Shown: positions 24,488 through 28,705 of the stretch, one piece after another | Layout: the number at the start of each line of letters is the position of its first letter | Numbering within the stretch: the first letter of the stretch is position 1 | The notes under the pieces: model-generated | Database searches by the model: none | Told to the model about the DNA's origin: nothing | What the model saw: only the letters and a program-made list of their open reading frames with translations | Source of the DNA: Leptolyngbya sp. Heron Island J | GTDB lineage: Bacteria; Cyanobacteriota; Cyanobacteriia; Phormidesmidales; Phormidesmidaceae | Assembly (NCBI RefSeq): GCF_000482245.1 | Contig: NZ_AWNH01000045.1 | Span: 1 to 64,000 of the forward strand | Reading direction: 5' to 3' | Length of the DNA stretch: 64,000 nucleotides | Position numbers and translations under genes: made by a program

Positions 24488-24820
24488 ATGAAGTCTATTT
24501 TGGCTACAGTGACGGCATTTGTAGCGAGCGCTCTTTTCCTAGTAGCTTCTCCTGCTATGGCAGCTGATGCTGGCGCTGGTGCTCAGGTGTTTTCTGCCAA
24601 CTGTGCTGCTTGCCACATTGGTGGTGGCAATGCAGTTAACCCCGCTAAAACTTTGAAAAAAGATGACTTAGTTGCCTACGGCAAAGACACCTCTGAGGCA
24701 ATCGTCTATCAGGTCAATAATGGTAATGGTGGGATGCCTGGTTTTGGTGGTCGTTTGACCCCTGAGCAAATTGAAAATGTTGCAGCTTACGTACTGTCGC
24801 AAGCTGATAAAGGCTGGTAA
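24488..24820 (+). CDS. petJ: Cytochrome c6 (cytochrome c553)
   Basis: Lumenal c-type cytochrome that can replace plastocyanin between cytochrome b6f and photosystem I. The 110-residue precursor has a signal peptide ending PAMA (residue 25). Haem attachment CAACH is at residues 39-43 and the likely axial Met is Met83 in GGMPGFGG. It has a good ribosome-binding site and a long terminator hairpin. Its position beside petE suggests coordinated opposite regulation. Confidence 0.96.
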   Translation: MKSILATVTAFVASALFLVASPAMAADAGAGAQVFSANCAACHIGGGNAVNPAKTLKKDDLVAYGKDTSEAIVYQVNNGNGGMPGFGGRLTPEQIENVAAYVLSQADKGW

Positions 24821-24901
24821 TTTTAGATTGTACTTAAACCAGCTACCGGTGAGCTAGCTTTGGATTTTACCTGAGCTACGCTTACTTTTTAATCTTTAAA
24901 G

Positions 24902-24941
24902 CCTGTTTTCAGGGGTATTCCCCCTCTGGAAGCAGGTTTTT
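24902..24941 (+). terminator. Rho-independent terminator of petJ
   Basis: CCTGTTTTCAGGGG pairs with CCCTCTGGAAGCAGG over about 13 positions (some G-U), followed by five T, 80 bases after the petJ stop. Confidence 0.8.
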
Positions 24942-25143
24942 GTATTAGGTAACGTAGTTTTGAAGGTTAAAGAAAATCTCAAGAACTCTGAGTAGGATGT
25001 CACACCTGTGTAAAAAATAATACTTGGTCGATGGGATGCTGCTCGTATGCGTGACCGATGTTGGAGACACTTTGAGGCTATATGATGCTTGTTTGGCCAG
25101 TTGAAATCATTCGTTTCCCTGCGATCTCAGGTCGTTCAGCCCA

Positions 25144-26709
25144 GTGGCTTCCCTGGTAGCGCGGCTGGCATCATTCGCCAGTCGTTCAGTCGCTGTAGCC
25201 TATGCCCTGGGGCTGGCAGGTTGCCAAGTAGCTGCCCAGTTACCAGCAACCTCGGGTGGACGACAGGTAGCGAGTTCCCGTTCAGTGATTGTTCAACTAT
25301 TTGAATGGCGCTGGTCAGATGTTGCCCAGGAATGTGAGACCTGGCTAGGGCCTTATGGTTATGGTGCCGTACAGATTTCGCCACCCCACGAGCATCGAGT
25401 CATTGCGCAAGAGACAATGCCATTTCCCTGGTATCAGCGCTATGAACCGGTGAGCTATAGGCTATCAAGCCGCAGCGGCAATCGGGCAGCGCTTGCTAAT
25501 ATGGTGAGTCGCTGCCATAGCGCTGGGGTAGACGTGTATGCCGATGTGGTCATCAATTCTCTGGCTCTAGCGAATGACAGCACTGCCCAAATGGTGGACT
25601 ATAGCAGCCGCTGGGAGGGTTCTCAAGGTGTTGATGACGATACCCTCGACATCAGCAGTGATTTAACTGATCCCTATGCTACCGAGGTCTATGACAATGC
25701 TGAAGCAGCTACTAGAGCAATACACACCAGCCAGTTAGATTATCCCCAGGATCTGGATACGGGAAGTGAGCAGGTGCAAGCTGCGATCACAGCTGCCATG
25801 AATGAGCTACTATCCCTGGGTGTGGCAGGATTTCGTATTGATGCAGCCCACCGTATTCCACCACAGCATTTAGCTAAAATTTTGCGCCGTTTGCATCCGC
25901 TCAATAGCAAGTTTCATCCCGAAGGCGGTCGACCTTTTATCTATCAAGCCGTCAGTGGCACTGACGCAGCCCAACCTAGTGATTATTTTAGCAATGGAGC
26001 AGTGACCGAATTTCGCTATGGTCGTAATCTCGGTGAGCAAATACTCTACGGCGAGTTAAAAAATCTGGTGCTCTTTGGCGAAGCCTGGGGACTCATCCCC
26101 AGTCATAAAGCAATCGTGTTTACGGATAACCACATCACTCAGCGGAGTCGCGATCGTAATATCGTCACGTTCTATGCACCGGCAGACAACGGAGCCAGCT
26201 ACCGCCTAGCCAACATCTTTATGCTAGCCTGGCCCTATGGCACCCCCAAAATCATGTCCAGCTATGATTGGCCACGAGAGCAGGGTAATTGGGTCGGCCC
26301 ACCAGCCGATGCACAGGGGCAAACCTTACCGGTGAACTGCGGTGACGGCTGGGTGTGTGAACATCGCTGGTCTGATATCGCCAATATGGTGGAATTTCGC
26401 AATGTCACCCAAGGCAACCCTAGCGTCATTCATTGGTGGGATAACGGCAATAACCAAATCGCATTTGCCCGAGGCAATCGCGGCTTTGTTGTGATCAATA
26501 ACGACAATAGCGTCCTGAGTGAAACATTAATGACGGGTCTGCCAGCTGGCAGCTACTGCAACATCTTATCCAAACCGACCTCGGTTGATTCGGTCGGAGA
26601 TACCCTAGCAAGCTGCGATACAGTCATCGTCGTCGATACCGAAGGCAACGCCACATTTGCAATAGCACCACAGCAAGCAGTCGCACTGCATATCAAAGCC
26701 CGTCTCTAG
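25144..26709 (+). CDS. Alpha-amylase-like (GH13) lipoprotein lacking key catalytic residues
   Basis: A 521-residue protein like animal/actinomycete alpha-amylases: SPPHEH, PWYQRYEPVSY, GFRIDAAHR (region II, nucleophile Asp233 kept), GEAWGLIPSHKAIVFTDNH, and the C-terminal FRNVTQGNP...WWDNGNNQIAFARGNRGF. However, the region I His is Ser139 (DVVINSL), the region III acid/base Glu is Ala269 (FIYQAV), and the region IV Asp after the conserved His is Ile331 (DNHIT). It is therefore probably not a normal hydrolase and may bind glucan or serve another role. The N-terminus carries a lipobox LAGC (Cys27). The only usable start in the open frame is GTG at 25144; a stop precedes it at 25102. Confidence 0.88.
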   Translation: MASLVARLASFASRSVAVAYALGLAGCQVAAQLPATSGGRQVASSRSVIVQLFEWRWSDVAQECETWLGPYGYGAVQISPPHEHRVIAQETMPFPWYQRYEPVSYRLSSRSGNRAALANMVSRCHSAGVDVYADVVINSLALANDSTAQMVDYSSRWEGSQGVDDDTLDISSDLTDPYATEVYDNAEAATRAIHTSQLDYPQDLDTGSEQVQAAITAAMNELLSLGVAGFRIDAAHRIPPQHLAKILRRLHPLNSKFHPEGGRPFIYQAVSGTDAAQPSDYFSNGAVTEFRYGRNLGEQILYGELKNLVLFGEAWGLIPSHKAIVFTDNHITQRSRDRNIVTFYAPADNGASYRLANIFMLAWPYGTPKIMSSYDWPREQGNWVGPPADAQGQTLPVNCGDGWVCEHRWSDIANMVEFRNVTQGNPSVIHWWDNGNNQIAFARGNRGFVVINNDNSVLSETLMTGLPAGSYCNILSKPTSVDSVGDTLASCDTVIVVDTEGNATFAIAPQQAVALHIKARL

Positions 26710-26854: not shown

Positions 26855-28705
26855 ATGCCCGTTAATAAAGATCCGCGCCCACCGCGCTCTCGACAAATTA
26901 GCAACCTACTGTTTTTGTTAGGAGCCATTTTGTTGACAGCAAATATCTTTCTACCGATTCAGCGCACACCGCGTACTCCTTACAGCATGTTTCTTCATCA
27001 GGTGCAGGAGCATGAGGTTATCCAAGCATCGGTCGGCCAAAATGAAATTCGCTATCAGGTCAAAAATGAGCTAGGAGAGCCTGGTGCGGTTTATTCCACC
27101 ACACCGATTTTTGACCTAAAGTTACCCGATTTGCTCGAAGCTAATGGTGTGGAGTTCGCAGCAATGCCACCCCCTCAAAATCAATGGATTGGTAGTTTGT
27201 TGAGTTGGGTGATTCCACCGTTAATCTTTATTGCTGTATGGCGCTTTTTCTTAGCCAGAGGCGGTGGTCCCCAAGGAGCCCTCTCCATTGGTAAAAGCAA
27301 GGCTAAGGTATATGTAGAAGATGAAGCGACCAAAATCACCTTTGAAGATGTTGCAGGGGTAGAAGAGGCCAAAACCGAGCTAGTAGAAATTGTTGACTTC
27401 CTCAAAACCCCCAAGCGGTTTACTGAAATTGGGGCCAAAATCCCTAAAGGTGTCTTGTTAGTCGGCCCTCCAGGAACGGGGAAGACATTGCTAGCCAAGG
27501 CAGTAGCAGGCGAAGCGGGAGTTCCCTTCTTTAGTATTTCGGGGTCTGAGTTTATTGAGCTGTTTGTGGGTGTGGGTTCTTCACGAGTACGAGATTTGTT
27601 TGAGCAGGCTAAAAAGCAGGCTCCCTGTATTGTCTTTATCGATGAGCTTGACGCCATTGGTAAGTCTCGGGCGTCCGGTGGTTTTTATGGTGGTAACGAT
27701 GAGCGTGAGCAGACTCTCAACCAGTTACTAACAGAAATGGATGGGTTTAGTGCAGGTGACAATACTATTATTGTTTTAGCCGCAACAAACCGTCCTGAGA
27801 CCTTAGACCAAGCGTTGTTGCGTCCGGGGCGATTTGATCGTCAGGTGCTAGTAGATCGTCCAGACTTGAAGGGCCGCGAAGCAATTCTCACAATTCATGC
27901 CCAAGAGGTAAAGCTGGGAGATGATGTTAATTTGAATGCGATCGCAACTCGAACTCCTGGATTTGCCGGTGCCGACCTAGCAAATCTAGTCAACGAAGCG
28001 GCACTGCTGGCCGCTCGCAACAATCGTCAAGCCGTCATCCAGGCCGACTTTGCCGAAGCCATTGAGCGCGTAGTCGCCGGCCTAGAGAAAAAGAGCCGCG
28101 TTCTCAACGAGAAAGAGAAGAAAATTGTCGCTTACCACGAGGTAGGCCATGCCATGGTAGGTGCCCTAATGGAAGATAGTGGCCAGGTCGAGAAAATCTC
28201 TATCGTGCCACGCGGCATGGCAGCCTTAGGCTATACGCTCCAGCTCCCAACTGAAGATCGATTTCTTCGAAGTGCCGAAGAACTAAAAGGTCAAATTGCC
28301 ACACTGTTGGGCGGGCGATCTGCCGAAGAAGTTGTCTTTGGTTCAATTACGACCGGTGCCGCCAATGACCTACAGCGGGCTACAGAAGTAGCAGAGCAAA
28401 TGGTCACCACCTACGGTATGAGCGAAGTACTAGGCCCCTTAGCTTATGACAAGGGGCAGCAAACCTCATTTTTAGACAGCGGCATGCCCAATGCACGTCG
28501 TAATATGAGTGAAGCCACAGCTAGAGAAATTGATGCTGAAGTCAAAGGTTTGGTAGAAGCAGCCCATGAGCAAGCATTAAATATTCTGCGAAACAATCGA
28601 GAACTGTTAGAAAGCATTTCACAACAGTTACTCAAAGAGGAAGTTATTGAAGGAGATGAACTCCGATCCATGCTTGCACAAGTCAAGCCACTGGTTACGG
28701 CCTAA
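26855..28705 (+). CDS. ftsH: ATP-dependent zinc metalloprotease FtsH
   Basis: Membrane AAA+ protease for quality control, in cyanobacteria including photosystem II repair and stress signalling. The 616-residue chain has two membrane spans (about 19-36 and 112-132), Walker A GPPGTGKT, Walker [12 protein letters not shown], the pore FVG motif (LFVGVG), the second region of homology ([22 protein letters not shown]), and the zinc site HEVGH near residue 430. Cyanobacteria have several FtsH paralogues; which one this is cannot be settled here. A very strong terminator follows. Confidence 0.96.

Follow-up and report, generated by a model that had tools for sequence, protein, structure and literature searches.

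The window analysed here, a stretch of 64,000 nucleotides from the 8.06 Mb genome of the cyanobacterium Leptolyngbya sp. Heron Island J, carries a gene for a predicted lipoprotein of the α-amylase fold (25144..26709) between the genes for cytochrome c6 (petJ, 24488..24820) and an FtsH protease (26855..28705). Both neighbours were named by sequence recognition, their synteny is conserved in the genus, and all features described below lie, like these, on the plus strand. The frame is open from a GTG at 25144 to a stop codon ending at 26709 and encodes 521 residues, which bears out the intact frame described in an earlier note on this DNA. The N-terminal signal peptide (25144..25224) ends in the lipobox LAGC, by which the protein is predicted to be a bacterial lipoprotein anchored at Cys27, the membrane tethering which that note had proposed. 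All eight genus members have a lipobox followed by Cys-Gln and start with a GTG at much the same position; active family members mostly have a plain hydrophobic N-terminus, with a lipobox-like motif in a few.

Over its full length the product is about 40–48% identical to animal and bacterial chloride-type GH13 α-amylases, and its best match among solved structures is human salivary amylase (E 6.6e-114, over the mature length). Pfam matched the catalytic domain weakly (29.9 bits) and the C-terminal all-β domain (PF02806, 26437..26694) at E 8.7e-16, and the scores against NCBIfam equivalogs were far below cut-off. Similar to the chloride-dependent animal-like amylases (GH13_24, GH13_15 and GH13_32; human salivary and pancreatic, Tenebrio and Pseudoalteromonas haloplanktis enzymes), the protein has a (β/α)8 barrel, the C-terminal β domain and the cysteines of C28-C86, C378-C384 and C450-C462, numbered here and below as in the human amylase, to which the window residues were aligned. 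The chloride-ligand residues R195, N298 and R/K337 are present as R231, N329 and K369, as far as a residue alignment can tell; in two relatives, L006 and L008, R195 is a His. Full-length homology, barrel and C-terminal domain thus place the protein in this fold family. Unlike the chloride-dependent amylases, however, it carries the predicted lipoprotein anchor and is without E233, D300, H101, K200, H201, the glycine-rich loop and a proper domain B.

Alignment to the human enzyme confirmed the three substitutions claimed in the earlier note: His101 of region I is Ser139 (25558..25560), the acid/base Glu233 of region III is Ala269 (25948..25950) and the transition-state Asp300 of region IV is Ile331 (26134..26136). 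The nucleophile Asp197 is kept as Asp233 (25840..25842) in the GFRID motif of region II, which the note had also named, and this Asp is the one residue left of the triad D197/E233/D300. Other acidic residues might have stood in at the catalytic columns; we looked for them in the alignment and none was found. With the triad and region I altered and no replacement acid visible, the catalytic machinery is, judged by sequence, absent. Several further losses had gone unnoticed, namely K200 to H236, H201 to R237, L165 to P201, Q63 to E101, Y151 to N185, H305 to R336 and I235 to S271, together with the C141-C160 disulfide; among the calcium ligands N100 and D167 remain and H201 is gone. The glycine-rich mobile loop (human 304–309) is shortened to Ser-Arg-Asp (26146..26154), and across the genus G304 is Ser, G306 is Asp and positions 308–309 are deleted in 8/8.

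We found the gene in all eight species-level Leptothoe/Adonisia genomes, comparing one genome per species, each time as an intact lipoprotein ORF. The copies of the seven other species, among them Adonisia turfae CCMR0081, Leptolyngbya sp. PCC 7375, Leptolyngbya cf. ectocarpi LEGE 11479 and Leptothoe kymatousa TAU-MAC 1615, always form a single open frame, at about 62–72% protein identity, and no genus genome contains a second close copy. Orthologues with normal residues, which the earlier note had named as a sign that this copy is decaying, were not what we saw: the genus orthologues share the loss of D300, which is replaced in 8/8 (Ile in three, Lys in three, Ser in two). H101 is replaced in four members (Ser, Asn, Asn or Gln), E233 in three (Ala, Ala or Asp; the window species, L007 and L009) and D197 in two (Glu in L009, Gly in L006). 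Outside the genus, H101, D197, K200, E233, H299 and D300 were invariant in the tabulated homologues, 58 from other cyanobacteria, of the same family and of other families, and 14 from other bacteria. Since all 71 homologues compared from outside the genus keep the triad and every one of the eight species within it has lost D300, this pattern is not due to chance, and its recurrence across eight independent genomes makes an assembly error at the key codons unlikely.

The retention of E233 in five and of D197 in six of the eight members makes residual activity possible in those species. That the window protein is still an enzyme, with another residue substituting or with a changed reaction, might be argued from its own Asp233 and from the relatives which have both D197 and E233, but we hold it to be highly improbable: there is no acidic residue at its E233 and D300 positions, the latter is Ile, Lys or Ser throughout the genus, L006 and L009 are without even the nucleophile, domain B is gone, and a conserved new chemistry should fix its residues, whereas these drift.

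Codon models, whose ω values are approximate because dS is high, gave 0.154 for the genus as a whole and 0.143 for the terminal branch leading to the window species, as compared with 0.095 in active family relatives and 0.04–0.08 in the flanking genes. The pseudo-amylase gene thus evolves faster than its neighbours and its active relatives, and constraint on it is somewhat relaxed. On the same terminal branch, where by tip states A269 and S139 arose, neutrality was rejected (2ΔlnL 75.7). A slowly decaying gene without function would account for an ω above that of the neighbours and for catalytic residues drifting differently in each species; nevertheless we can give this explanation hardly any credence, as the ORFs are intact in 8/8 at this degree of protein divergence, neutrality is strongly rejected on the window branch and the barrel is conserved as in active enzymes. 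The gene is also retained intact in Le. kymatousa TAU-MAC 1615 (L037), a genome-reduced sponge associate (PMC8225149). Decay of one lone copy is ruled out by the genus-wide pattern and the branch test, and the earlier judgement that the gene is not simply decayed was right. Essential residues are lost and the gene is under purifying selection across species; it is indeed a genuine, genus-wide GH13 pseudoenzyme, predicted to be inactive.

Purifying selection falls mainly on the barrel. Identity in the barrel segments is 77% in the genus vs 77% in active family members and 77 vs 72%, while it is 58 vs 67% in the C-terminal domain and, on average, only 35 vs 74% in domain B, where ω is 0.193 in the genus and 0.093 in the active relatives. 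The 71 active homologues share 97 positions with essentially no variation, and at 24 of these at least one genus member departs from them. The departures are concentrated in the active site, where they affect 14 of 17 active-site or subsite positions, as against 10 of the remaining 80 (Fisher p = 3.3e-8); which positions counted as active-site was decided from what is known of the human enzyme, and coded into the script, ahead of the counting. We also considered, and rejected, a conserved patch newly formed near the cleft, as clustering of the sites uniquely fixed in the genus was not significant (permutation p = 0.16), and no new binding surface is therefore pinpointed.

Domain B is one wall of the amylase substrate cleft. 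Its equivalent in the window protein (residues 138–204; 25555..25755) is degenerate, with the disulfide and substrate residues lost, and deletions of about 30 aa were found in this domain in L008 and L009. In an AlphaFold2 model of the window protein the barrel was mostly confident and the C-terminal domain confident, while domain B had a pLDDT of about 33–45; an active homologue folded as control from the same 45 sequences scored 92.3 overall, with about 90 in domain B. From the collapsed sequence, and from a model so much less confident here than the control, the protein no longer has a domain B that provides a calcium site and a wall for the substrate. The earlier statement that the protein keeps the GH13 scaffold is right for the barrel and the C-terminal domain but does not extend to domain B. 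The model matched Tenebrio, Drosophila, P. haloplanktis and mammalian amylases with Z of about 40–42; a fold shared with chloride amylases is expected and says nothing on function.

These observations bear on the glucan-binding pseudoenzyme of the earlier note, a lectin-like protein in which the remnant cleft (W58, Tyr59, Y62, Q63) would hold an α-glucan uncut and tether the polymer at the surface. W58 and Y62 are invariant in 8/8, position 59 is an aromatic Tyr and Q63 is present in 7/8 each, N298 is kept in 8/8 and H299 in 7/8, and the predicted lipid anchor suits retention at the surface. On the other hand, domain B is collapsed or deleted and the mobile loop shortened, K200, L165, I235 and H305 are lost in every genus member, W58 and Y62 lie in a motif that may be structural, and the window protein itself has Glu in place of Q63, so that we regard this explanation as doubtful. 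The collapse of domain B, plus-subsite residues and mobile loop argues against the old cleft being simply retained as a glucan site; as the sole binding site it is unlikely, although the surviving W58, Tyr59 and Y62 would allow glucan binding.

About ten other GH13 genes are present in the genome of the window species. The product of one of them, on contig C57, is exported and, as read from its sequence, carries D, E and D in regions II–IV; it has relatives in 7/8 genus genomes and is a distant relative of the window protein (32% identity over 215 aa). With such an exported, triad-bearing GH13 protein present, extracellular α-glucan catalysis can be the task of another protein. Its co-occurrence would also fit an inactive decoy, which would sequester protein inhibitors of amylases, or other ligands of the cleft, and so shield an active secreted amylase. 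A precedent comes from beetles, in which non-catalytic GH28 homologues take part in one digestive pathway together with their active counterparts and can be of importance to it (PMC6549527). In a decoy, however, the surface of the cleft should be preserved, domain B included, and it is precisely domain B that has collapsed; the exported amylase, moreover, is only distantly related to the window protein. We therefore consider a decoy very unlikely.

In the tree, the genus sequences formed one clade with 100% support on a long stem (about 0.6), owing to which attraction artefacts are possible. Grouping with cyanobacteria in general was not rejected (AU p = 0.25–0.28), and a vertical origin from the active amylase of their own family, tried as a grouping with those amylases, was rejected only weakly (AU p = 0.028). 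Each lineage that has lost E233 (the window species, L007 and L009) has as its partner in the tree a relative in which this residue is still present. By parsimony on tip states, D300, the transition-state stabiliser, was most likely lost once, on the Leptothoe/Adonisia stem, and later separate changes would have affected E233 in three sub-lineages, D197 in two and H101 in three. Meanwhile domain B and the mobile loop would have been remodelled or deleted.

A gene that is under selection and lacks the cutting machinery must have a role other than starch cutting. We think that this selectively maintained, genus-wide pseudoenzyme is probably an envelope lipoprotein with a non-catalytic role in binding or scaffolding. 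The protein would be exported and lipid-anchored at Cys27, as its signal peptide strongly predicts. It would sit on the envelope, on its periplasmic or its outer face, and would hold a partner protein or an envelope polysaccharide by means of the barrel and the C-terminal domain, not of the old cleft; other GH13 enzymes, for example the exported homologue on contig C57, would be responsible for catalysis. More specifically, and more tentatively, a chloride-type amylase may have turned into a lipid-anchored non-catalytic subunit which organises another envelope protein or glycan enzyme, in a genus-specific manner akin to CD98hc or ISA2. CD98hc/SLC3A2 and rBAT-type heavy chains are membrane-anchored GH13-type barrels, noted to lack catalytic residues (PMC8063059), and each is the partner of another protein, to which we liken the role proposed here; they differ in being α-glucosidase-like animal proteins with a TM helix and an amino-acid transporter as partner, and are not close homologues. 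Plant isoamylase 2 (ISA2; PMC12510319) is likewise a GH13 protein kept for a non-catalytic role, but it belongs to subfamily GH13_11, is the plastidial partner of ISA1 and has no close relationship to the window protein. The sand fly proteins LlAamyB4/B6 (PMC8063059) are animal-type amylases predicted from sequence to be inactive, without nucleophile and acid/base; these, however, are paralogues in one insect with no conserved lineage shown, and are not lipoproteins.

In the literature searched, no paper was found that treats this gene or chloride-type pseudo-amylases from bacteria, and the genus genome paper makes no mention of an amylase. The glycosidase pseudoenzymes known to us come from plants and animals. 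The present one offers a clean bacterial case: the gene is present once in each of eight species, its synteny is fixed, and its losses form a legible pattern in which the stabiliser appears to have gone first, then the acid/base and the nucleophile, with domain B released, so that a shift from enzyme to binding protein becomes directly testable. An automatic label 'alpha-amylase' in Leptothoe/Adonisia genomes would be incorrect. These are marine, often host-associated cyanobacteria, and the subunit role, if true, would be specific to the genus.

In five genus loci read with wide context the gene lies between petJ (cytochrome c6, beside plastocyanin) and ftsH, a placement absent from sister genera. 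The intergenic region after petJ (24821..25143) contains blocks conserved in an alignment of six genus members, and these suggest that the pseudo-amylase gene probably has its own promoter; promoter and terminator scans gave nothing above chance. A nearly invariant block of this region (~24901–24942), whose ends are complementary (GCCTGTTTT...AAGCAGGTTTTTG) in the six genus members, is terminator-like and went unreported by the pattern scan. In one relative (L143:10913–11023) the petJ beside the pseudo-amylase gene is internally deleted, with roughly 18 codons left at its start and 21 at its end, and in another, a draft genome (L142:6293–8130), the downstream ftsH is in two frames, possibly through an assembly error.
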